In this document: positions 3,123 to 51,741 of the stretch, one piece after another
Position numbering within the stretch: position 1 is the first letter of the stretch
Layout of the letters: every line of letters starts with the position of its first letter
Source: Streptomyces sp. 378
Lineage (GTDB): Bacteria; Actinomycetota; Actinomycetes; Streptomycetales; Streptomycetaceae
DNA length: 64,000 nucleotides
Assembly (NCBI RefSeq): GCF_030124145.1
Contig: NZ_JASKMS010000016.1
Coordinates: 1-64,000, forward strand
Direction: 5' to 3'
Position numbers and translations under genes: made by a program
The notes under the pieces: model-generated
Databases searched by the model: none
Told to the model about the DNA's origin: nothing
Seen by the model: the letters and a program-made list of their open reading frames with translations, nothing else

Positions 3123-4766
3123 TCAGCTCTCCGCGAGCAGCTCGTCCGCGTCCATGATCCGGTACGCGTACCCCTGTTCCGCCAGGAAGCGCTGGCGGTG
3201 GGCCGCGAAGTCCTGGTCGACGGTGTCCCGGGCGACCACCGAGTAGAAGTGCGCCTGGTGCCCGTCCGACTTGGGGCGCAGGACCCGGCCGAGGCGCTGG
3301 GCCTCCTCCTGCCGGGAGCCGAAGGTGCCCGAGACCTGGATCGCGACCGTCGCCTCCGGCAGGTCGATCGAGAAGTTCGCGACCTTGGACACGACGAGCA
3401 CGCTGATCTCGCCCTGGCGGAAGGCTTCGAAGAGCTTCTCCCGCTGCGCGTTCGACGTCTCGCCCTTGATCACGGGCGCCCCGAGGTGCTCGCCGAGCTC
3501 GTCGAGCTGGTCGATGTACTGGCCGATGACGAGGATCTGCTGCCCGGCGAAGCGGCGGACGATGGCCTCCGTGACCTTCCGCTTGGTCGCGGTCGTCGCA
3601 CAGAAGCGGTACTTCTCCTCCGTCTCCGCCGTGGCGTACGCGAGCCGCTCGGAGTCGGTCAGATTGACCCGGACCTCCACGCAGTCGGCGGGCGCGATGT
3701 AGCCCTGCGCCTCGATCTCCTTCCACGGCGCGTCGAACCGCTTGGGGCCGATCAGCGAGAACACGTCCGACTCGCGGCCGTCCTCCCGGACCAGGGTGGC
3801 GGTCAGACCGAGCCGCCGCCGTGCCTGGAGGTCGGCGGTGAACTTGAAGACCGGCGCGGGCAGCAGGTGCACCTCGTCGTAGACGATCAGCCCCCAGTCC
3901 CGCGAGTCGAACAGCTCCAGGTGCGGGTAGACGCCCTTCCGCCGGGTCGTCAGCACCTGGTAGGTCGCGATCGTGACGGGCCGGATCTCCTTCCGCGTCC
4001 CGCTGTACTCACCGATCTCGTCCTCGGTGAGCGACGTCCGCTTCACCAGCTCGTGCTTCCACTGCCGGGCGGAGACGGTGTTCGTGACGAGGATGAGGGT
4101 GGTCGACTTCGCCTGGGCCATCGAACCGGCCCCGACCAGGGTCTTCCCGGCGCCGCAGGGCAGCACGACGACGCCCGACCCGCCGTGCCAGAAGTTCTCC
4201 ACGGCCTGCTTCTGGTACGGCCGGAGCGCCCAGCCGTCCTCGGCCAGCTCGATCTCGTGCGCCTCGCCGTCGACGTACCCGGCGAGGTCCTCGGCCGGCC
4301 AGCCCAGCTTGAGCAGCGTCTGCTTGATCTGGCCGCGCTCGGAGGGGTGCACCACGACCGTGTCCGGGTCGATCCGGGCGCCGACCAGGGGCATGACCCG
4401 CTTCGACCGCAGGATCTCCTCCAGCACCGGGCGGTCGGTGGTGGTCAGGACCAGGCCGTGCGCCGGGTGCTTGGAGAGGGTGAGACGGCCGTAGCGGTCC
4501 ATCGTCTCGGCGATGTCGACGAGCAGCGCGTGCGGCACCGGGTAGCGGCTGTACTGCACGAGCGCGTCCACGACCTGCTCGGCGTCATGGCCCGCCGCGC
4601 GGGCGTTCCACAGGCCCAGCGGGGTCACACGGTAGGTGTGGATGTGCTCCGGCGCCCGCTCCAGTTCCGCGAACGGGGCGATGACCCGGCGGCAGTCGTC
4701 GGCCTGCTCGTGGTCGACTTCCAGGAGCAGGGTCTTGTCGGACTGGACGATCAGCGGACCATTCAC
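3123..4766 (-). CDS. XPB-type DNA repair helicase
   Basis: A superfamily 2 helicase of 547 residues, the usual length of bacterial XPB. In order: an N-terminal damage-recognition-like domain, Walker A (PCGAGKT), the DEVH box (VYDEVHLLP), motif III GLTATLVREDGRE including the XPB-specific RED sequence, and motif VI (EEAQRLGRVLRPK). It is expected to unwind DNA with 3'-5' polarity; its in vivo role in actinobacteria is not settled. The start is a GTG with an AAAGGG sequence about nine bases upstream; the open frame continues to 5003 without support. A gene for a protein with XPB/Ssl2-like helicase domains lies downstream at 5648-8188. Confidence 0.93.
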   Translation of the reverse strand: MNGPLIVQSDKTLLLEVDHEQADDCRRVIAPFAELERAPEHIHTYRVTPLGLWNARAAGHDAEQVVDALVQYSRYPVPHALLVDIAETMDRYGRLTLSKHPAHGLVLTTTDRPVLEEILRSKRVMPLVGARIDPDTVVVHPSERGQIKQTLLKLGWPAEDLAGYVDGEAHEIELAEDGWALRPYQKQAVENFWHGGSGVVVLPCGAGKTLVGAGSMAQAKSTTLILVTNTVSARQWKHELVKRTSLTEDEIGEYSGTRKEIRPVTIATYQVLTTRRKGVYPHLELFDSRDWGLIVYDEVHLLPAPVFKFTADLQARRRLGLTATLVREDGRESDVFSLIGPKRFDAPWKEIEAQGYIAPADCVEVRVNLTDSERLAYATAETEEKYRFCATTATKRKVTEAIVRRFAGQQILVIGQYIDQLDELGEHLGAPVIKGETSNAQREKLFEAFRQGEISVLVVSKVANFSIDLPEATVAIQVSGTFGSRQEEAQRLGRVLRPKSDGHQAHFYSVVARDTVDQDFAAHRQRFLAEQGYAYRIMDADELLAES

Positions 4767-5647: not shown

Positions 5648-8188
5648 TCAGTCCCCGTCGTCGGCGAGTTCCGCGACCCCGGTGATCCGGTGCAGCGGGT
5701 ACGTACGGACCTCGTCCGCGGTGTGGTCGTAGGCCGTGACGAAGCCGCCCTCGACGCGGACCGGGGCGATGACCCGCTGGCTGGCGGCCCCCTCGGCGTT
5801 GACGTAGCCGATCCACAGGGCCTCTCCGGTGAGCACGGCGGCCTGCATGGTGGCGAGGGTCTCGGCGGCACCGGTGCGGGGCGGCTCCCCGTCGAGCGCC
5901 GGGGCGGTGCCGGGCTTGCGCGGGGTGGTGGAGGCGAGGTCACCGGCCCGGATGGCGCGCAGCGCGGCCGCGAGGAGGGTGTCGTCGGGCGTCGGCGGGC
6001 CGTCCGGCACCGGCTCGGGCGCGGTGCGGGGCGGGGTGCGGTGGGCCAGGGCGCGGGTGATCAGCACATCGCCCTCGGCGGACTCGGCGGCCGGCGCGAA
6101 GCCCATCGCCCGCAGGCCTTCCAACAGTCCGGACGGGTCGGCCTGCGCGGCCAGCACGGTCGGCGCGAGCCGGCGCAGCCCGAGTCCGGCGGCCCGTTTG
6201 TCGGCGAGGATCTCGTTGAGCACCGCGTCGTCGTCGCAGCGCACGTACGCCGAGGCCGCGCCGACGCGCAGATGGCCGTGCCGCCGGGCCACGTCGTCGA
6301 TCAGGTAGGCGAGCGGCTGCGGCACGGGTGTGCGGGAGTGCGCGGCGAGAAAGGCGTGCAGGTCGGATGCGGCCTGCCCGGCGTCCAGTGCCCTCCGCAC
6401 CGAGCCGGGCGTGAACCGGTACACGGTGGCCCCGCCCTTGGACTCGACGTCCGCCAGTACGCCCAGCATGTCCGCGAGGGGCCGCCGCAGCGGCCCGGGC
6501 GCCACCGCCGTCAGGTCGGCCTGGAGCAGCACGTGGTCCAGCGGCTCGGGCAGCAGCGGCGCGAGCAGCCGGGCCGCCGCGGCGGAGGCGACGGCCTGTT
6601 CGGCGGGGGAGAGGGGAGTGAGCGGGGTGGGGCGGTGATGGTGGTGGACGGGCAGTTTGTCGCCCGGCCCGACGGGCTCCGCCTCCGGGCTCTTCGCGGG
6701 AGCCGCGGGCGCGCCCAGCAGGGTCCGGCCCTGGGCCGACAGCGCGCCCCGTCCCGTGACGCCCAGCAGCTCCGCCTCGGACAGGGCCCATTCGGCGAGC
6801 CGGCCGCGCGGGTCGTCCTCGCGCCGGTCGCCGCGCAGGGGCCGCTCCCAGCGCAGCCGGGCCAGCACCGACCCGGCTGCCGGAGCGGCGCCCTCGGGCA
6901 GCCCGGCCAGCAGCGTCAGCACCCGGTGCCGCACCTCGGGCGCCGCCGAACGGTCCAGGCCCGGCCCGAGCGCCGACAACGTACGGTCCTTCGCGTCCCG
7001 CCCGCCCACCAGACCGGCCGTGCGGGTCGCCGCGAGCCACGCCGTGACCAGCCGGGACCAGCGCTCGGCGGCGGGCAGCTCCCGCCACTCGTCGTACGCC
7101 GGGGTCGCCGCGTACCGCTCGTCGGCCTCGCCGTCCGAGGCGATCAGACCGGCCGCGTACGCCAGTTCCACCCAGAACGCGGCGACGGGCTCCGATACGT
7201 CGAGGGCGACGGCGGTCCGCTTCAGGTCCCGCACGCTGAGCCCACCGGCCCGCAGCACCGCCGGTCCGCCCTCGTCCCAGTCCTTCAGCAGCTCCTCGAC
7301 GGTCGCGAGCGCGGTGTACGCCTGCCCGGCCGCGGTGCTGTCCACAACCTGTGGACGATGCGTGGCCGCCACCTCGACCACCGGCGGCACCGGCTCGGGC
7401 GTCCGGTGCGCCAGGCCCCGCCGCAGGTGCAGGGCGACCTCGCGCGGCAGGACGACCGTCCCGGGCGCCGTCGGCAGCAGCAGCCCCCGGTCCAGCAGCC
7501 AGCGCAGCCGGGGCGCCGGATCGGCGGTGACCTGCCCGTACGGCGGCCCCCACACCAGGCGTTCCAGTACCTCCAGGGAGTCGGCCGGGGCCCCGGCGAG
7601 CAGCGCGGCCATCCGGGCCCGGTCCGTGAACAGCCCGGCCAGGGCGGTCACCGCGGAGACCGCGTCGTGCGTCGAGGGCAGACCGGCGGCCGTGACGATC
7701 TCCTGGATCCGTCCCGGGGACATTCCGGCGGTGGCCTCCTGGACCGTCGGGCCGAGCCCGGTCGGCGAGGGGTGCTGCGGCGAGGGGGCCAGCAGCTCAC
7801 GCGCCGTGCGGACCAGCCGCAGCCGGTCGTCGCCGCCCCACACCAGGGCCTGTTCGCGCAGGCCGTCCAGGGCGTGCGGCAGGGCCGCGACGACGGCGGG
7901 GGCGGCGTCGTCCCCGGCCATGAGTGCGAGCAGTTCGCCGTAGGTCGCCGGGTCCGCCGCCACGGCCAGCGCCTCCGCCGTCTGCAGGGCGAACCGGTCC
8001 AGCCGCTCCAGGGCCCGCACCACCGAGGCACGGGTGCCGGCGCGGGTCGCGAGCTGGGTGAGGTCGGTGGGGACGGGCGTGATGAGATCCGGGCGGCTGC
8101 GCAGGAGCGCGCCCAGCGAAGCGTCGCCCCGCGCGCGGAGCTCTTCCGCGAGGGAGCGGGGGGCCGGGGGCCTGTCCTCGGTGCTCAT
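5648..8188 (-). CDS. XPB/Ssl2-like helicase-domain protein with WYL-like tail
   Basis: A protein of about 846 residues of the actinobacterial 'helicase C-terminal domain-containing' family (XPB/Ssl2-like domains). It begins MSTEDRPPAP, continues with winged-helix-like repeats, and has no Walker A motif, so it is not an active helicase by itself. The last 70 residues (ETLATMQAAVLTGEALWIGYVNAEG ... RVIAPVRVEGG ... YPLHRITGV, described in pieces) look like a WYL-type ligand/nucleic-acid binding module. It lies near the XPB helicase gene on the same strand, which suggests a shared role. GTG and ATG starts within three codons are both possible; the ATG was used. Confidence 0.85.
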   Translation of the reverse strand: MSTEDRPPAPRSLAEELRARGDASLGALLRSRPDLITPVPTDLTQLATRAGTRASVVRALERLDRFALQTAEALAVAADPATYGELLALMAGDDAAPAVVAALPHALDGLREQALVWGGDDRLRLVRTARELLAPSPQHPSPTGLGPTVQEATAGMSPGRIQEIVTAAGLPSTHDAVSAVTALAGLFTDRARMAALLAGAPADSLEVLERLVWGPPYGQVTADPAPRLRWLLDRGLLLPTAPGTVVLPREVALHLRRGLAHRTPEPVPPVVEVAATHRPQVVDSTAAGQAYTALATVEELLKDWDEGGPAVLRAGGLSVRDLKRTAVALDVSEPVAAFWVELAYAAGLIASDGEADERYAATPAYDEWRELPAAERWSRLVTAWLAATRTAGLVGGRDAKDRTLSALGPGLDRSAAPEVRHRVLTLLAGLPEGAAPAAGSVLARLRWERPLRGDRREDDPRGRLAEWALSEAELLGVTGRGALSAQGRTLLGAPAAPAKSPEAEPVGPGDKLPVHHHHRPTPLTPLSPAEQAVASAAAARLLAPLLPEPLDHVLLQADLTAVAPGPLRRPLADMLGVLADVESKGGATVYRFTPGSVRRALDAGQAASDLHAFLAAHSRTPVPQPLAYLIDDVARRHGHLRVGAASAYVRCDDDAVLNEILADKRAAGLGLRRLAPTVLAAQADPSGLLEGLRAMGFAPAAESAEGDVLITRALAHRTPPRTAPEPVPDGPPTPDDTLLAAALRAIRAGDLASTTPRKPGTAPALDGEPPRTGAAETLATMQAAVLTGEALWIGYVNAEGAASQRVIAPVRVEGGFVTAYDHTADEVRTYPLHRITGVAELADDGD

Positions 8189-39990: not shown

Positions 39991-40937
39991 CCGCCCCTCC
40001 GAGCAGTCGAACGACAGCGGTGACGGCGGCTCCCGTGATCGAGTGCCTCGGTGTGCCCATCACCGCGCACACCCGCGACAGTGCGGCCGGCCATGTCGTG
40101 CACCTGGCCGGCCGGATGCGCGAGGCACGCCATGGGCTCACCGACGGACCCGGCGCCTCCGGCATCCGGCGCGGCAGTGACGTACACCTGTCCAACGCCT
40201 ACACGCTCGCGCTGGCCGACCGGGACCCCGAACTGCGCGGCATCCTCCGCTCGGCCGCCCTCAACCTCCCCGACGGGCAGCCGGTCGTGTGGGCCAACCG
40301 ACTGCTGCATCCGAGCGCCGCACTGCCGGGCACGCGTGTCTATGGCCCCGACCTCCTCACGGACGTCTTCGCCCTGACTCAGCACACGGATCTGAACCAC
40401 TACCTTCTCGGCTCCACGCCCCAGGTGCTCGACGCACTCCACCAGGAGCTGCGGCGGCGCTATCCCGGGGCGCGGATCGTCGGCACCTGCTCCCCGCCCT
40501 TCCGACCCCTGCACGTCCACGAATGGCGGCAGCAGGTGGAGGAAATCCGTTCCGCCGAGGCGGACATCGTCTGGGTCGGACTCGGCACGCCGAAGCAGGA
40601 CCGCTGGGCCGCCGAACTGTGCGACGCCCTGCCGGTGGTGGCCGTGGCCGTGGGCGCGGCCTTCGACTTCATCGCCGGCAACAAGCCGCAGGCACCGCAC
40701 TGGATGCGGCACAGCGGGCTGGAATGGCTGTTCCGGCTCGGCTGTGAACCACGCCGCCTGTGGCGCCGGTACCTGTTCGGCAACGCGCGCTTCGTCCACG
40801 GGGTGGTGCGCCAGGCGTCACGCCCGGTGCGAGCGGACAGCGGTGCGGTACACGCGGCATCCGATCGCCTGAATTCGGGCCGACTCGTCGGCCAAGGCCG
40901 GGAAAATCCCGACATCGTTCCTAAGGTACGGCCATGA
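39987..40937 (+). CDS. WecG/TagA/CpsF-family glycosyltransferase
   Basis: A 316-residue GT26 enzyme: LSNAYTLALADRDPELR, LPDGQPVVWANRLL, GTRVYGPDL, NHYLLGSTPQV, the ADIVWVGLGTPKQDRWA block and GAAFDFIAGNKPQAPHWMRHSGLEWLFRL (in parts), all diagnostic. Such enzymes transfer an N-acetylmannosamine or related (glucuronic/N-acetylaminouronic) residue to lipid-linked sugar as the second step of assembly. Starts within the previous stop (ATGA) and its own stop overlaps the next gene, so strict translational coupling. Confidence 0.92.
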   Translation: MTAPPSSRTTAVTAAPVIECLGVPITAHTRDSAAGHVVHLAGRMREARHGLTDGPGASGIRRGSDVHLSNAYTLALADRDPELRGILRSAALNLPDGQPVVWANRLLHPSAALPGTRVYGPDLLTDVFALTQHTDLNHYLLGSTPQVLDALHQELRRRYPGARIVGTCSPPFRPLHVHEWRQQVEEIRSAEADIVWVGLGTPKQDRWAAELCDALPVVAVAVGAAFDFIAGNKPQAPHWMRHSGLEWLFRLGCEPRRLWRRYLFGNARFVHGVVRQASRPVRADSGAVHAASDRLNSGRLVGQGRENPDIVPKVRP

Positions 40938-43685: not shown

Positions 43686-44887
43686 AGGCCGGCCACCACC
43701 CGAGGATCGTGATCGTCCAGCCCTACATCCCCAGCTACCGGACCGCATTCTTCGAACGTCTCAGGAGTGATCTTCAGGCCGAAGGGTGCGCCTTGGACGT
43801 GCTGCACGGTCCTCCGCCCCCCTCTCACGTGGCACGACAGGACGCTTCGCACTGCTCGGGCGCGATCGAGGTCCCGGTGCGCCGTCTCGGCGTACCCGGA
43901 GGCCGGTCACTCGTCTGGCAGCAGGTGCAACGGCGAGCGGCCTCCGCCGACGTCGTCGTACTGGAACAGGCGTTGCGCAATCTCGAAACGTATCCGCTGC
44001 TTCTTCGGCAGGCGCGCATGACCGGTGGTCTCACTCCGCGTGTCGCCCTGTGGGGCCACGGCCGTACCTACACCAAGCCGGTGAGCCGCATCGAGACCGC
44101 CGCCAAGGACGCCCTCACCCGGCGCGCCTCCTGGTTCTTCGCCTACACCGAGGGCGGAGCCGACCACCTCGCCTCCGGCGGCTTTCCACGCCGGCGCATC
44201 ACCGTGGTGCGCAACTGCGTGGACACCGTAGCGCTCGCCCAGGCCCGCGAGCGCGCGGGAACGCCCGGGACCCAGGAGTTCGCCGAAGCGGCCGCCCTGC
44301 GGTCGCGCCACGGGTTGCTGCCCGGACGGACAGCCCTGTTCGTGGGCGGGCTGGACGCTCCCAAGCGAATCCCCCTGCTGCTGGAGTCTGCTGGGCGCAT
44401 CGCCCGCGCCCTGCCGGGATTCCGGCTGCTCGTGGCGGGGGACGGTGCCGATCGGCCCTTGGTCGAGGCCATGGCCTCCACGGCCAAGAGCCCGGTGGTC
44501 CCCCTGGGGCATATGACGGGAAGCCAGGTAGCGCTGCTCGGAGCGGTGTCGGACGTCATGCTGATGCCGGGCAGGGTGGGGCTGTGCGCGGTGGACTCGT
44601 TCGTTCTGCGGACCCCTGTAATCACCACGGACTGGCCCTGGCACGCACCGGAGTTCGAATACCTGAGGAACGGACACAACGCCGTCATCACGTCCGACGA
44701 CCCGACGGCGTACGCGGCGGCGGTGCAGGCGCTGCTGACCGACCAGGCCCGTCTCGCCTCCCTCCGAGCGCGCTGCCGGGAGGACGCCGCCGCCTACACG
44801 ACCGACGCCATGGCCACGCGTTTCTGTGAAGGGCTGCTCCGGCTGCTCAGCGAGACCCGAAAACCCGCGGCGGACAAGCTGTGGTGA
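43679..44887 (+). CDS. GT4-like glycosyltransferase
   Basis: A 402-residue GT-B glycosyltransferase: IVIVQPYIPSYRTAFFERL at the N-terminus, ALWGHGRTYTKPVSR, then the donor domain with ALFVGGLDAPKRIPLLLESA and LLVAGDGADRPLVEAMA. The usual E-x7-E is replaced by RVGLCAVDSFVLRTPVITTD, an acceptor-domain variation seen in related enzymes. GAGGGG six bases before the GTG sets the start. It is the last gene of the coupled run; 15 bp after its stop lies the left 57-bp inverted repeat. Confidence 0.88.
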   Translation: MLKAGHHPRIVIVQPYIPSYRTAFFERLRSDLQAEGCALDVLHGPPPPSHVARQDASHCSGAIEVPVRRLGVPGGRSLVWQQVQRRAASADVVVLEQALRNLETYPLLLRQARMTGGLTPRVALWGHGRTYTKPVSRIETAAKDALTRRASWFFAYTEGGADHLASGGFPRRRITVVRNCVDTVALAQARERAGTPGTQEFAEAAALRSRHGLLPGRTALFVGGLDAPKRIPLLLESAGRIARALPGFRLLVAGDGADRPLVEAMASTAKSPVVPLGHMTGSQVALLGAVSDVMLMPGRVGLCAVDSFVLRTPVITTDWPWHAPEFEYLRNGHNAVITSDDPTAYAAAVQALLTDQARLASLRARCREDAAAYTTDAMATRFCEGLLRLLSETRKPAADKLW

Positions 44888-44901
44888 GGCAGTGAGCCTT
44901 C

Positions 44902-44958
44902 TCAGCGTTGCCGCTCCAGGGCGAGGACGGCTGCGGTGATTGGCGACATGCGATTCGG
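44902..44958. repeat. Left arm of 57-bp inverted repeat
   Basis: Inverse of 46222-46278 with 55 of 57 bases identical. Read on the minus strand it encodes NRMSPITAAVLALERQR and a stop, while the right arm read on the plus strand encodes the same peptide with one change. This looks like the 3' end of a mobile-element gene present twice in opposite orientation. Confidence 0.9.
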
Positions 44959-45275
44959 CTGCACCGGGCTCCGCGGAATGCCCGCCAGGACTTCAGACGG
45001 GCCACACCCGCTCGACCCGATCAGTGGCCACGCTGAAAAGCCCCGTGTCGCAGATCGAATCGGGTGGCCTGGAGCCGCAGCGCATGGCGGCGGTCGCACC
45101 CGCGGTGCTCATCGGCTCACGCCGGGACCGGGCACCTTGCCGAGGGCGAGTGCCGGCCCCGATGAGCTGGACAAATACCAACAGGCTGCGTGCCGGACGA
45201 CCGGGCGGGTGATGCATGCCGCATGCCAGGTGTGGCACCGAAACCGGTCCGAGGCAGCGCTGTAGCGTCGCTCGC
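44959..45275. other. Non-coding stretch before the flanked methyltransferase
   Basis: About 317 bp inside the inverted repeats with no credible gene on either strand. Near the end a repeat of GCATGC lies at 45214-45230. TAGCGT at 45263-45268 is the probable -10 box of the next gene. Confidence 0.5.
45263..45268 (+). promoter_or_regulatory. Leaderless -10 box of the flanked methyltransferase
   Basis: TAGCGT, then seven bases, then the GTG at 45276. No Shine-Dalgarno sequence is visible, so the start is probably leaderless. Confidence 0.55.
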
Positions 45276-45917
45276 GTGTCTGTTGCGAAAAGCGTTGCCA
45301 GGTCGGTCATCGGCGTCGTCAACCGCCCCGTCGCCAAGGCCCGGTTCGCGTATGCGGCCAGGTCAGGGCCCCTCCTAAAGATCGAAGTGGGCGGCTTCCG
45401 GAGCCGTCGGCCCGGCTGGATCTGCACCGATGTCTGCTGGCACACACGGTCTTATCTGGATGCCACCAAGACGTGGCCCGTCCGCTCCGGCTCGGCGAGT
45501 CACATCTACTCCGACAACATGATCGAGCACATCCGCCTCGAGCCTGCCCGCCGCATGTTCCGTGAAGCCCGGCGCGTTCTGGCACCTGGTGGGCGCATCC
45601 GGCTGTCGACACCCGATGTCGAGCACGCTGTGCGGCTGTACCTGGCACGTGACGACGAGACGCGACGGGAGATGGAGGAGTGCCGGCGGAGGGGGTACCA
45701 GGCCGAGCATCCGGTTGATCTGCTGCGCATGACCTTCCAGGACTGCGGCCATCACGCCGGATTCCTGTGGGACTTCGAGGCGGTGGAGGCGGAGCTCCGG
45801 TCAGCTGGTTTCTCCGCCGTCCGTCGTTACGCACCCGGCCAGAGCGATGATCCTGAACTCCGGAACCTGGAGTCCCGGCCCCAATTCGCCTTGATCGTCG
45901 AGGCGGCTGTTGCCTGA
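45276..45917 (+). CDS. SAM methyltransferase-like protein between inverted repeats
   Basis: A 213-residue protein of the small methyltransferase group in which the usual glycine loop reads KIEVGGFRSRRPGWICTDV; later come HIYSDNMIEHI, RMFREARRVLAPGGRIRLSTPDVE and a C-terminal LRSAGFSAVRRY. Compared with relatives (GSG..RPGWINTD) one or two motif-I glycines are missing, so activity needs testing. It lies alone between the 57-bp inverted repeats, separated from the operon before and after, with its own leaderless promoter. Confidence 0.8.
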   Translation: MSVAKSVARSVIGVVNRPVAKARFAYAARSGPLLKIEVGGFRSRRPGWICTDVCWHTRSYLDATKTWPVRSGSASHIYSDNMIEHIRLEPARRMFREARRVLAPGGRIRLSTPDVEHAVRLYLARDDETRREMEECRRRGYQAEHPVDLLRMTFQDCGHHAGFLWDFEAVEAELRSAGFSAVRRYAPGQSDDPELRNLESRPQFALIVEAAVA

Positions 45918-46221
45918 TCCCCGTCTCGCGGTGTTCGGCTGACGACGCCCTGCGACAATCGGCACGGCAGATGTGAACCCCGAGCAGCACCGAAGTCTCG
46001 ACATCTCACGGCCAACCATGCAGGAGCTTGTCAGAGGGCGTCTGAAAAGCCAGTCAGCGGGCAAGTTGCCTCCGGAGCGGGAGATTCTTTGTCCGCTGGT
46101 TCCGGCGGTCAAGCATGCTCATCGTCACCCGCGAGGGTCCTCGCCGACCGCGCCCGCATGGGAGCCGGCCGTGGGTGACGACATCCCTCAGGCGCCCACC
46201 GGGCCGCGACCTCACGCCAGT
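45918..46221. other. Non-coding stretch after the flanked methyltransferase
   Basis: 304 bp without a credible gene. A GGGCGTCTGAAAAG sequence at about 46037-46050 resembles insertion-sequence ends in style only. A frame continuing into the right repeat (to 46278) has mixed composition and is probably the broken tail of a mobile-element gene. Confidence 0.45.
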
Positions 46222-46278
46222 CCGAATCGCATGTCGTCAATCACTGCAGCCGTCCTCGCCCTGGAGCGGCAACGCTGA
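46222..46278. repeat. Right arm of 57-bp inverted repeat
   Basis: See the left arm at 44902-44958; 55 of 57 bases match in inverse orientation. Outside the arm, weaker similarity continues for about 15-20 bases (CAGTGAGCC-like sequences), inside it stops sharply. Confidence 0.9.
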
Positions 46279-46426
46279 AAGAACTCAGTGAGCCACATTC
46301 CGACTGCGCATCGACGCCGGGAAATCAGCCGCCCAACGGAAGTTCGGCGCGTGCGTCAGGACCATTCCATACGACCGTGACAGACTGGCCGGGGCTTGGG
46401 ATTCCATACGCCCCGGAGGAGGAGCT

Positions 46427-47218
46427 GTGAAAAGCGGAGTTGATTTGCAGCGCGCCGCGATGGCGGAAATCTGCAGTATCCGGGACGACTGGTCCTTCCA
46501 TGTGACCAGCGATCCGCTGACCCGTTTTCTGCGCGACCGGCGGCTGCAAACCGCGCTGCGCATGCTGCGCGTTCGAGGACTGCTCGATCCAGCGAAACAG
46601 AGCGTGCTGATCGTCTGCGGCGGTGTGGGCGGAGAGGGCATCTTCCTGAGGCGTTACGGCTTCACGGACATCACGGTCAGTGATCTGTCCGAAGAGACAC
46701 TCGCCGTGTGCCGCGGCCTGGAACCAAGACTTCGAACCATGTCTCTGAACGCGGAGAACATGGCCGAGATTCCGGATTCCAGTTACGACCTGGTCCTTGT
46801 CCAGGACGGCCTGCACCACTTGCCGCGACCGGTTCTGGGTTTCACCGAGATGCTCCGGGTGGCCCGGAGGGCCGTCATCGTGATCGAGCCGCACGACGGT
46901 CTGGTGGGAAAGCTCATCGGCACCGAATGGGAACGGCAAGGAGACGTCGTCAACTATGTCTTCCGATGGAATCGCTCGATCCTGGACCAGGCCACCCGCA
47001 GCTATCTGCTGTGCAAGCAGGCGATCGTACTGCCGCGCAGGATGTGGGACCACAACGTGGTGGTCGGAAAGCTGGCACGCCGCTTTCCGGATCGTTGGCG
47101 CCTGCCGGTGGCGAAAGCCGTCTACCAAGTACTGCGGCCGGTGAACCGGCTCGGCAACATGATGGTCGCGGTGGTGGTGAAGGCGGACGGCAACCCGGCA
47201 CATCGGAGCGGACGGTGA
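46427..47218 (+). CDS. Class I SAM methyltransferase
   Basis: A 263-residue methyltransferase: motif I VLIVCGGVGGEGIFL, VSDLSEETL, DLVLVQDGLHHLPRPV and RVARRAVIVIEPHD are recognisable. It has an N-terminal helical extension of about 50 residues (KSGVDLQRAAMAEI) and a C-terminal basic part. Substrate unknown; a glycan is likely from context. GGAGGAGGAG just upstream of the GTG makes this a strong start. GTGA overlap with the next gene. Confidence 0.85.
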   Translation: MKSGVDLQRAAMAEICSIRDDWSFHVTSDPLTRFLRDRRLQTALRMLRVRGLLDPAKQSVLIVCGGVGGEGIFLRRYGFTDITVSDLSEETLAVCRGLEPRLRTMSLNAENMAEIPDSSYDLVLVQDGLHHLPRPVLGFTEMLRVARRAVIVIEPHDGLVGKLIGTEWERQGDVVNYVFRWNRSILDQATRSYLLCKQAIVLPRRMWDHNVVVGKLARRFPDRWRLPVAKAVYQVLRPVNRLGNMMVAVVVKADGNPAHRSGR

Positions 47219-47943
47219 ACCTTTCACAGCGTGCCTACATCAGGGTCAGCGCCGCCTTGCCTGCCGCGATCTCCTTCCGGACGGATCTGCTGTTCCCACG
47301 CCTGAGCATGCCCGAACTGGGGCCGTTCAATGGGCAGCTCAGGCGACAGGAGATCATCCGCGAACTGCTGGCGTCGATCAGCTTCGACGAGATCGTCGAG
47401 ACCGGTTCCTTCCGCGGCACTACGACGAGGTTCCTGAGTGACATCTCCGGCCTGCCCGTCCACTCCGCCGAGATCGAAGAGAGGTTCTACAGATACGCTG
47501 CGGTGAAATGCCGCAGCCTTCCAGGGACCCGCCTGTACCACGCAGACTCACGGAAGATGCTGAACATCCTCTCGAAGCGGCCAGGAAACCCCGCGCTGCT
47601 CTTCTATCTCGACGCTCACTGGCAGGAGGACGTACCTCGCTACCAGGAACTGGAGATCATTGAGGCGCACTGGAGCAGAGCCGTCGTGATGATCGATGAC
47701 TTCCGCGTGCCGGGCGACCCCGGTTATCAGTTCACCTCGTACCACGGAATCCCGTTGGACGTGAACTACCTTCCCGGGCTCCCGGGCTGGAAGGCCTTCT
47801 ATCCGAAGAGCGATTCGGTCGGCGAGACCGGCGCGAAGCGGGGATGCATCGTCCTGGCGAGCCCTGAGATGGCCCCGGCCGTGGACGCGCTCTCCAGCCT
47901 GCGCGCGGGCGAACTCACCCGGCAGAGCATCGCGAACGGGTGA
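47215..47943 (+). CDS. Methyltransferase-like protein (class I fold)
   Basis: A 242-residue protein: EIVETGSFRGTTTRFLS corresponds to the SAM loop, followed by VHSAEIEERFYRYAA, a central LLFYLDAHWQEDVPRY and AVVMIDDFRVPGD, resembling Methyltransf_24/cephalosporin-hydroxylase-like proteins that bind a metal through D-D-x-H type residues (DAH, DD). Substrate unknown. It overlaps the preceding methyltransferase stop by four bases and precedes the flippase by 10 bp, so the three genes are one operon. Confidence 0.78.
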   Translation: MNLSQRAYIRVSAALPAAISFRTDLLFPRLSMPELGPFNGQLRRQEIIRELLASISFDEIVETGSFRGTTTRFLSDISGLPVHSAEIEERFYRYAAVKCRSLPGTRLYHADSRKMLNILSKRPGNPALLFYLDAHWQEDVPRYQELEIIEAHWSRAVVMIDDFRVPGDPGYQFTSYHGIPLDVNYLPGLPGWKAFYPKSDSVGETGAKRGCIVLASPEMAPAVDALSSLRAGELTRQSIANG

Positions 47944-50301: not shown

Positions 50302-51741
50302 TTATTGCTGGTATTCACCGTGCCTCTGATTCGCCCCTTTCTCGGCTGTGTCACCCCTCTGCTGGGCGACGAGCGGTTTTCTCCGCACATCGCTGAACCG
50401 GCCTGCCGCGTCGGCACGCAGCTGCCACAGACACAGCCCGAGGAGGACCCCTTGCTCGGGAAACGGAGAGTACGAGACGAAGAGTACGAGCTGGGAGACG
50501 ACCACCAGACGCAGTGCCGGCGTACCGTTCCCGCAGCGACCGAGCCGCCGCCATACGAGAACGTACAAGGTCAGCAGCGTGAGCAGTCCGATCGCGCCCA
50601 GGCGAAGCAGGACGTGCAGGTAGTAGTCGTGCGGGGAGACGGAGATCACCACGCCTCCGACCCACCGGTCGTAGCCGGCGCCGAACGGACTGCCCAGCAG
50701 CCATTCGATCAGGGTCTTGGGCCCGTCCATCAGCTCCTGCCAGCCGAGAACCCGCCAGGAGAAGGTGCTGTTCGGGTCCTGAGTCTCCGCGAAGGAGTCG
50801 GCGAGGACGCTGCCGACCCCGCCGAACATGCCGGCAGTGAACGCCAGTGCGACGATGCACAGGGACACTGCGGCTGCTGCCGCGGAGGCAAGGCGTTGAC
50901 CTGCCCGGGCAGGAATCAACGCCCACCACATGACCGCCATCACGATGGTGATCGCCCAGACGGTCCGGTGTTGCAGCAGCACCACGAAGACCAGACAGAG
51001 TAGCGCCGGCAGGATCTTGCCGCGGGCGCCGTCGGGCCGGCCTTTCCGCTCCCGCCGGTCTCTTCCCGGGCTGTTCTCCGCGGTCGTGGCCGGGGCGGAC
51101 GAGTCCCCGCCCCATGGGCACAGCAGGAGCACCGCACTTTGCGCGAGGACCAGAGCCGACCTGGCCGGCACCGGCCTGGGGTCGTACACCTCCCCTCCTA
51201 CGGTGGCGGCGTCGACGACCGAATGCAGTCCGGTGTTCAGCCATCCGACCAGGCTCAGTGCGGCGTACGCGGCGGCCGAGACCAGCCACAGCCGCACGAC
51301 GGCCCGGGCCCTGCCGGCGTGCAGGGGCGCGGTCGCCACATACAGGACCGAGGCGAAGACCTGCCAGAAGTAGACGCGGGCGTCATTGGCGGCGGCGGGC
51401 AGGCCCCACGCACCGACTCCCCGCTGAATCGACCATACGATCAGGAACAGCACCGCCAGTACGAGCACCAACTCGGCCCGGGGCGCCACCCCACGCCGCA
51501 GTAGCCGGGCGCCGGCCACCAGCATGGCGCAGGCGGCCAGCAGATCACTTGGGCGGATGCTGACGCCGACATCGAAGAGCGGGATCTCACCATTCGCGGC
51601 GATCACCCACACCTGTACGCCCAGGAGGAGACCGATGGCGGTGTTGCAGTGCTGGGTGAAGATCCACAACAGGACGACGAAGAGCGCCAGTCCGACGAAG
51701 AGGGTCTGAGTAATGTCCGAGGCGACGGCTAGGTCGTGCAC
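50302..51741 (-). CDS. Wzy/O-antigen-ligase-like polymerase
   Basis: A 479-residue integral membrane protein with 10-12 helices and a large extracytoplasmic loop between about residues 300 and 370 (VLADSFAETQDPNSTFSWRVLGWQELMDG, in parts; SPHDYYLHVLLRLG), the layout of the Wzy_C/O-antigen ligase family. It should polymerise repeat units outside the membrane. GTG start; 75 bp separate it from the GT2 gene upstream. The C-terminal 30 residues are polar and variable. Confidence 0.85.
   Translation of the reverse strand: MHDLAVASDITQTLFVGLALFVVLLWIFTQHCNTAIGLLLGVQVWVIAANGEIPLFDVGVSIRPSDLLAACAMLVAGARLLRRGVAPRAELVLVLAVLFLIVWSIQRGVGAWGLPAAANDARVYFWQVFASVLYVATAPLHAGRARAVVRLWLVSAAAYAALSLVGWLNTGLHSVVDAATVGGEVYDPRPVPARSALVLAQSAVLLLCPWGGDSSAPATTAENSPGRDRRERKGRPDGARGKILPALLCLVFVVLLQHRTVWAITIVMAVMWWALIPARAGQRLASAAAAAVSLCIVALAFTAGMFGGVGSVLADSFAETQDPNSTFSWRVLGWQELMDGPKTLIEWLLGSPFGAGYDRWVGGVVISVSPHDYYLHVLLRLGAIGLLTLLTLYVLVWRRLGRCGNGTPALRLVVVSQLVLFVSYSPFPEQGVLLGLCLWQLRADAAGRFSDVRRKPLVAQQRGDTAEKGANQRHGEYQQ

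Follow-up and report, generated by a model that had tools for sequence, protein, structure and literature searches.

Both of the long inverted arms that flank the methyltransferase gene MT in the window (i.e. the whole 64 kb stretch of DNA analysed here) are the 3' end, encoding the transposase C-terminus, of one IS5-type insertion sequence (IS) of ∼880 bp, which we refer to as IS-A. The locus is very probably a horizontally acquired gene set in an IS graveyard. Comparison of four genomes showed that MT, to judge from its alignments, was acquired and that its movement among Streptomyces polysaccharide clusters has been independent of the surrounding genes.

The inverted arms and the IS remnants around MT

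The arms (44902-44958 and 46222-46278) are identical at 55 of 57 bases in inverted orientation, and a repeat search stretches the pair to 69 nt at 90% identity; from base composition ∼1e-17 such pairs would be expected in 64 kb. Each arm encodes the peptide NRMS[P/S]ITAAVLALERQR-stop, in opposite (outward) directions, and the original prediction of 57-bp near-identical inverted arms sharing a peptide end is therefore confirmed. Its assignment of the arms to mobile-element ends was also borne out, as the plasmid matches and the IS comparison described below identify the encoded peptide as a transposase C-terminus. The idea that they are the two ends of a single element had to be abandoned, because both are the 3' end of two separately decayed IS copies. 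The arms look alike because both derive from the same IS subtype, and the inverted repeat ends after 57-69 bases because the right copy of IS-A has a deletion just inside. There is no need for the arms to have a present role. The case shows that a pair of long, nearly identical inverted arms need not mark the ends of a new element, and may instead consist of one IS end present in two truncated copies.

The window contains, as read from alignment to IS-A, two broken copies in opposite orientation, the left one internally deleted and the right one in three fragments. The 3' end of the left copy (44894-45017, minus strand) contains the left arm and encodes the transposase C-terminus in a frame that is broken further in; the corresponding nhmmer match runs from 45021 to 44890 on the minus strand (model positions 749-882, E 9e-26). 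This 3' part runs straight into IS-A 5' terminal bases (45013-45043, minus strand), which are marked by a match to CCCGATCAGTGGCCAC at 45016-45031. That string, which has no other exact match in the window, lies within the consensus 5' end and is present exactly in 3 of 12 plasmid copies. The left copy has therefore kept both IS ends and lost internal sequence. The right copy (46111-46290, plus strand), identified with nhmmer and containing the right arm, has two internal deletions, and its pieces lie at 46111-46138 (model 174-201), 46137-46217 (model 625-706) and 46218-46290 (model 810-882).

Scraps of two further ISs, both on the plus strand, sit between MT and the right copy: the 3' end of IS-B, a DDE_Tnp_4-type IS as in locus L105 (45960-46034; 80% over 76 bp), and a 5' fragment of IS-C, of the DUF4096 plus DDE_Tnp_1 type as in locus L104 (46033-46117; two pieces, 87-90%). 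On the S. violaceusniger plasmid pSTRVI01 (L105 37-98 and 220-1276) an IS-B copy adjoins an IS-A-like 3' end, i.e. the neighbourhood there consists of the same two ISs that adjoin each other to the right of MT in the window. A 9-bp direct repeat, CAGTGAGCC, lies at 44890-44898 and again at 46286-46294, and within it AGT (44891-44893 and 46287-46289) would be the 3-bp target duplication of a transposed unit.

IS-A on plasmids and in related genomes

When 44880-46300 was compared by blastn with 72,556 plasmid records, 88 matched, 87 of them from Streptomyces. The 20 matches listed cover two outer parts of this region, and a transposase is named under the match in 8 of these 20. A longer IS-A copy, covering model positions 111-879 of 882, is held by a close relative (genome G009). 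With that copy as the query 144 plasmid records matched, and in 66 of these 80% or more of its length lies at a single place; IS-A is common on Streptomyces plasmids. The IS-A profile HMM has 882 positions, a few flank bases included, and was built from 11 of 12 fetched plasmid copies. In their 3'-terminal stretches the window arms and the copies in G009 and S. himalayensis share 85-93% identity with one another and 71-88% with 11 plasmid copies. One further record, L103, which is part of a contig of Streptomyces sp. MMG1533, entered this IS scan only.

An intact relative of the element (L005) encodes a transposase of the DDE_Tnp_4/DDE_Tnp_1 kind, a 249-aa protein with matches to PF13359 DDE_Tnp_4 (2.8e-27), PF01609 (3.6e-17) and PF13613 HTH_Tnp_4 (2.2e-13). 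The NCBIfam IS5 model NF033581 (IS5_4) gave it 67.7 bits, under the cut-off of 140, and we therefore call IS-A 'IS5-type' and do not file it as a named member. By length alone, IS112 having ∼883 bp, it may be IS112-like.

Terminal inverted repeats are present, with CANTGAGC at the 3' end in 8 of the 12 copies and GCTCANTG at the 5' end in 9 of them; except for this short terminal repeat, the 3' and 5' ends of full copies differ. Among the 11 fetched copies in which both ends could be read, only 3 (L087, L090 and L092) have identical 3-bp flanks. The ends of the copies in L083-L094 lie mostly within CANTG, the middle base of which often differs between the two ends of a copy.

The searches of the host genome, a draft assembly of 8.67 Mb in 94 contigs of a kind that can lose repeats, did not turn up an intact IS-A. 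At E 0.001 and with 40 of 106 first-look candidates scored, the arms themselves were the only matches to a left-end query. With a longer IS query (40 of 261 candidates scored), three further fragments came up besides the pieces in the window, at C2:10684-10955, C22:102392-102496 and C34:67078-67254; the longest of these, 272 bp on another contig, includes a diverged 3' end. The transposase protein as query, with all 38 candidates scored, returned fragments of 98 and 43 residues and a distant relative (40%) with an open frame. A MITE, of which many internally deleted copies would be expected in one genome, is not supported as an explanation of the arms, the left end matching only the two arms among the 40 of 106 candidates scored, and none of the three other fragments having both ends.

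MT and its flanking genes

MT is predicted to encode a SAM-dependent methyltransferase of 213 aa from GTG at 45276 (45276-45917, plus strand), or of 233 aa from an alternative ATG at 45216 with the same stop at 45917; this ORF lies between the arms. The class I methyltransferase domain was recognised through PF08241 (E 2e-5; 25.6 bits, over the cut-off of 21.2), in a weak match to the C-terminal half of the domain only. A PDB sequence search with MT returned nothing significant (best E 0.053, to an unrelated entry), and the predicted fold, with a pLDDT of 44.8, was not used. Upstream of the insert lies a glycosyltransferase gene (GT; 43697-44887, plus strand; PF13692/PF00534) and downstream a second methyltransferase gene (MT2; 46427-47218, plus strand; PF08241). 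Foreign base composition did not serve as a marker of MT, as its GC content (0.659) lies between those of GT (0.700) and MT2 (0.628). The dN/dS of MT was 0.10-0.28 in four comparisons, as for a gene kept for use under purifying selection. Because of its place among glycosyltransferase and flippase genes (in S. himalayensis also a Wzy_C gene), MT probably adds a methyl group to the cell-surface polysaccharide of this cluster.

The ∼100 bp before the GTG (45177-45275, plus strand) are kept in all four aligned genomes; a sigma-70 scan found no promoter upstream of MT, and the leaderless promoter that had been proposed for it is one of the weaker parts of the original prediction. The preceding stretch (45046-45176) is common to the window and MMG1533, and is absent from the alignments of G009 and S. 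himalayensis.

Few genomes carry MT. Matches at E 1e-10 were obtained in 5 of 199 Streptomyces genomes (own included), 3 of which are 30-32% relatives, and at E 1e-30 in 2 of 392 (own included). The corresponding figures, again with the own genome included, were 31 of 199 for GT at E 1e-10 and 3 of 392 for MT2 at E 1e-30. The seven best non-own relatives of GT over most of its length (48-96%) are in G009, G034, G139, G117, G041, G101 and G099, and only G009 is among the MT matches of the 199-genome search. Against plasmids and phages MT gave only 27-31% matches, in 3 plasmid records and 1 phage record. When 45040-45300 was compared with plasmids, one 32-base match (a Hymenobacter plasmid) was obtained and none in Streptomyces plasmids.

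The locus in four genomes

A pattern scan of GTDB species genomes, covering close relatives only, added S. himalayensis (L048) and Streptomyces sp. MMG1533 (L049) to the comparison. All four close MT loci were found via the MT search, and the presence of MT among them is therefore biased. The loci of G244, G034, G117, G139 and G041 contributed gene-by-gene identities, which do not extend to what follows GT there.

The order in the window is GT, AGT, left IS-A copy, upstream stretch, MT, the IS-B and IS-C scraps, right IS-A copy (inverted), AGT and MT2. In G009 it is GT, AGT, MT, one IS-A copy (with 4 stops), AGT and MT2, i.e. there is no left arm, and the single IS-A copy has the orientation of the window's left copy, opposite to that of its right copy. 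MMG1533 has GT, MT2, the remnant of another flippase gene, the IS-A 5' end, the upstream stretch, MT and a partial second MT2, with MT starting at 6001, ∼1.9 kb past the GT stop. S. himalayensis has a flippase gene, an IS-A 3' remnant, MT, about ten IS-A-end-like bases, other transposases (DDE_5, rve) and FkbM. Thus an IS-A remnant of the same orientation lies upstream of MT in the window, S. himalayensis and MMG1533. MT with this remnant occurs at other positions in the latter two, and the right border differs; neither of them has, after MT, an IS-A copy like the window's right one.

The homologous GT-MT2 junction is uninterrupted in MMG1533, as the original reading of MT as cargo brought in would have it: GT (ending at 4075) is followed by the MT2 leader GGTGAGGCAGTGAGTCGCATTCC, and the repeat is there in one copy, CAGTGAGTC. 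GT and MT2 (start 4220) are 144 bp apart in that genome and so this step is not translationally coupled, at odds with the description of MT as interrupting an otherwise coupled operon. The arms do form part of a conserved gene, the transposase, as a reading against mobile cargo would expect; that reading would also need the segment at this junction in all four genomes, and not all of them have it there.

The flippase gene upstream of the IS-A remnant is whole in S. himalayensis and a remnant in MMG1533, where it matches the S. himalayensis flippase at 46% across 138 aa and at 64% across 39 aa; for the flippase of the window itself the figure is 25%. MMG1533 also has, besides its full MT2 (L049 4078-5045; 968 bp, 92.4% identical to the window), a second MT2 with its middle deleted after MT (6645-6855; 211 bp, 95.3%), both identities being for the aligned parts. 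The uninterrupted junction in MMG1533, lying next to this rearranged region with its second partial MT2, might be secondary rather than ancestral.

Evidence that MT has moved

The movement of MT between clusters is supported by both its identities and its site groupings when these are set against the rest of the cluster and rpoB. MT and the region upstream of it reach 96.0% identity between the window and S. himalayensis, compared with 92.6% for an rpoB stretch (3.8 kb with flanks). Outside MT the S. himalayensis cluster is 66-77% like the window where alignable (GT 69.5%, FkbM 72.1%, the gene at 50302-51741 65.8% and the stretch at 40382-40817 76.8%). Similarly, between G009 and S. himalayensis MT is 97.4% and rpoB 92.9% identical. 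No such excess was seen between the window and MMG1533 (MT 96.4%, rpoB 95.3%) or between the window and G009 (MT 95.0%, rpoB 96.7%).

The informative substitutions in MT were 11 for the grouping of window and MMG1533 against G009 and S. himalayensis, with none for either of the other two groupings; one 3-bp indel in MT gives the same split. The rpoB sites were divided 30:59:8, with the most for window and G009 against MMG1533 and S. himalayensis, unlike MT. A GACTGAGCTCTT junction at the MT stop is common to G009 and S. himalayensis. From these groupings and the shared junction it follows that the window and G009 hold different MT alleles within the same outer borders.

How the locus may have arisen

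In the graveyard reading, MT would come from a cluster like that of S. himalayensis, with an IS-A remnant just upstream, beyond the flippase gene. It could then have entered the GT-MT2 junction either together with IS-A copies or by recombination at them. Subsequently the ISs would have decayed and MT would have been kept under purifying selection, presumably methylating the cell-surface polysaccharide. The routes by which this may have happened are not equally probable, and we rate recombination between clusters above composite transposition.

Recombination of an S. himalayensis-type fragment (flippase end, IS-A and MT) into the junction, with the ISs hitchhiking or giving short homology, has a chance that we put a little short of even. 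It fits MMG1533, which keeps the flippase remnant, the IS-A 5' end, the upstream stretch and MT in a row, as S. himalayensis does, and where the duplicated partial MT2 is a sign of recombination. However, tblastn with the S. himalayensis flippase found no remnant between GT and MT in the window or G009, and transposition accounts better for the AGT borders that the insert has in the window.

Transposition of a composite unit, in which two IS-A copies (both since dead) carried MT into an AGT target between GT and MT2 with a 3-bp duplication, we consider rather unlikely. As in known composite transposons, two copies of one IS flank the gene. In the window, and likewise in G009, AGT borders the insert on either outer side, where the MMG1533 junction has a single AGT. 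The MT of S. himalayensis likewise lies between an IS-A remnant and a sequence resembling an IS-A end, GAGCTCTTT. Against this, equal 3-bp flanks are so uncommon among the IS-A copies (3 of 11) that AGT is not proven as a target duplication, the right-hand IS differs between the genomes (that of the window being inverted relative to the G009 copy), the MT alleles of the two genomes differ although their outer borders are the same, and there are remains of two other ISs on the right-hand side. In addition, no working transposase for such a unit was found: the window has fragments, the G009 copy has 4 stops, and the host genome has fragments or the 40% relative. The original description of MT as cargo near mobile-element ends therefore stands as regards the ends and the acquisition of MT, and its transposition as a single unit is unproven.

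A bolder and improbable version is that an IS-A-flanked cassette of MT and its own upstream region has repeatedly hopped from one Streptomyces polysaccharide cluster to another, and that two distinct alleles have reached the same GT-MT2 target. If true, such repeated jumps would give swappable surface methylation.

The notion that the arms are the left and right ends of a single mobile element carrying MT is very hard to sustain: they are long, nearly identical and outermost, but the 3' and 5' ends of full IS-A copies differ and both arms are 3' ends, G009 has MT without the left arm, and the left-end search of the host genome gave only the two arms (40 of 106 candidates scored), to which the more diverged 3'-end fragment on another contig can be added. 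Least credible of all is an invertible switch in which the arms flip MT, since apart from the inverted arms around one gene there is an unchanged orientation of MT relative to the cluster in all four aligned genomes, no recombinase family in the 4 scanned ORFs between the arms, and no such arm pair around MT in the three other genomes.

Relation to known systems

One statement in a paper on S. albus J1074 assigns most transposase genes of that strain to two families, e.g. IS112-/IS1647-like (PMC3937824). IS-A is like the IS5-family ISs of Streptomyces in its DDE_Tnp_4 plus HTH_Tnp_4 transposase, its short terminal inverted repeats and its many plasmid copies, whereas the window copies differ in being fragments. 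IS pairs around cargo and decayed ISs are known kinds of arrangement, as is the exchange of glycan-tailoring genes between surface-polysaccharide clusters. MT resembles the last of these in being 96-97% identical between S. himalayensis and clusters that elsewhere, where alignable, are 66-77% like its own. No report of this locus was seen in the literature examined on IS112 and composite transposons in Streptomyces, which does not prove its absence from print. As an instance of genes being shuffled around mobile DNA the locus is clear but nothing out of the ordinary, and the four related genomes can be taken as snapshots of a likely polysaccharide tailoring gene that has moved and been kept while the surrounding ISs rot.

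A separate difference among the genomes lies downstream of MT2. The G009 sequence (L043 11421-11526; window 47352-47788) is without two stretches, of ∼236 and ∼96 bases, of the gene at 47226-47943, which therefore looks broken there; the MMG1533 locus aligns along this gene for 717 bp.
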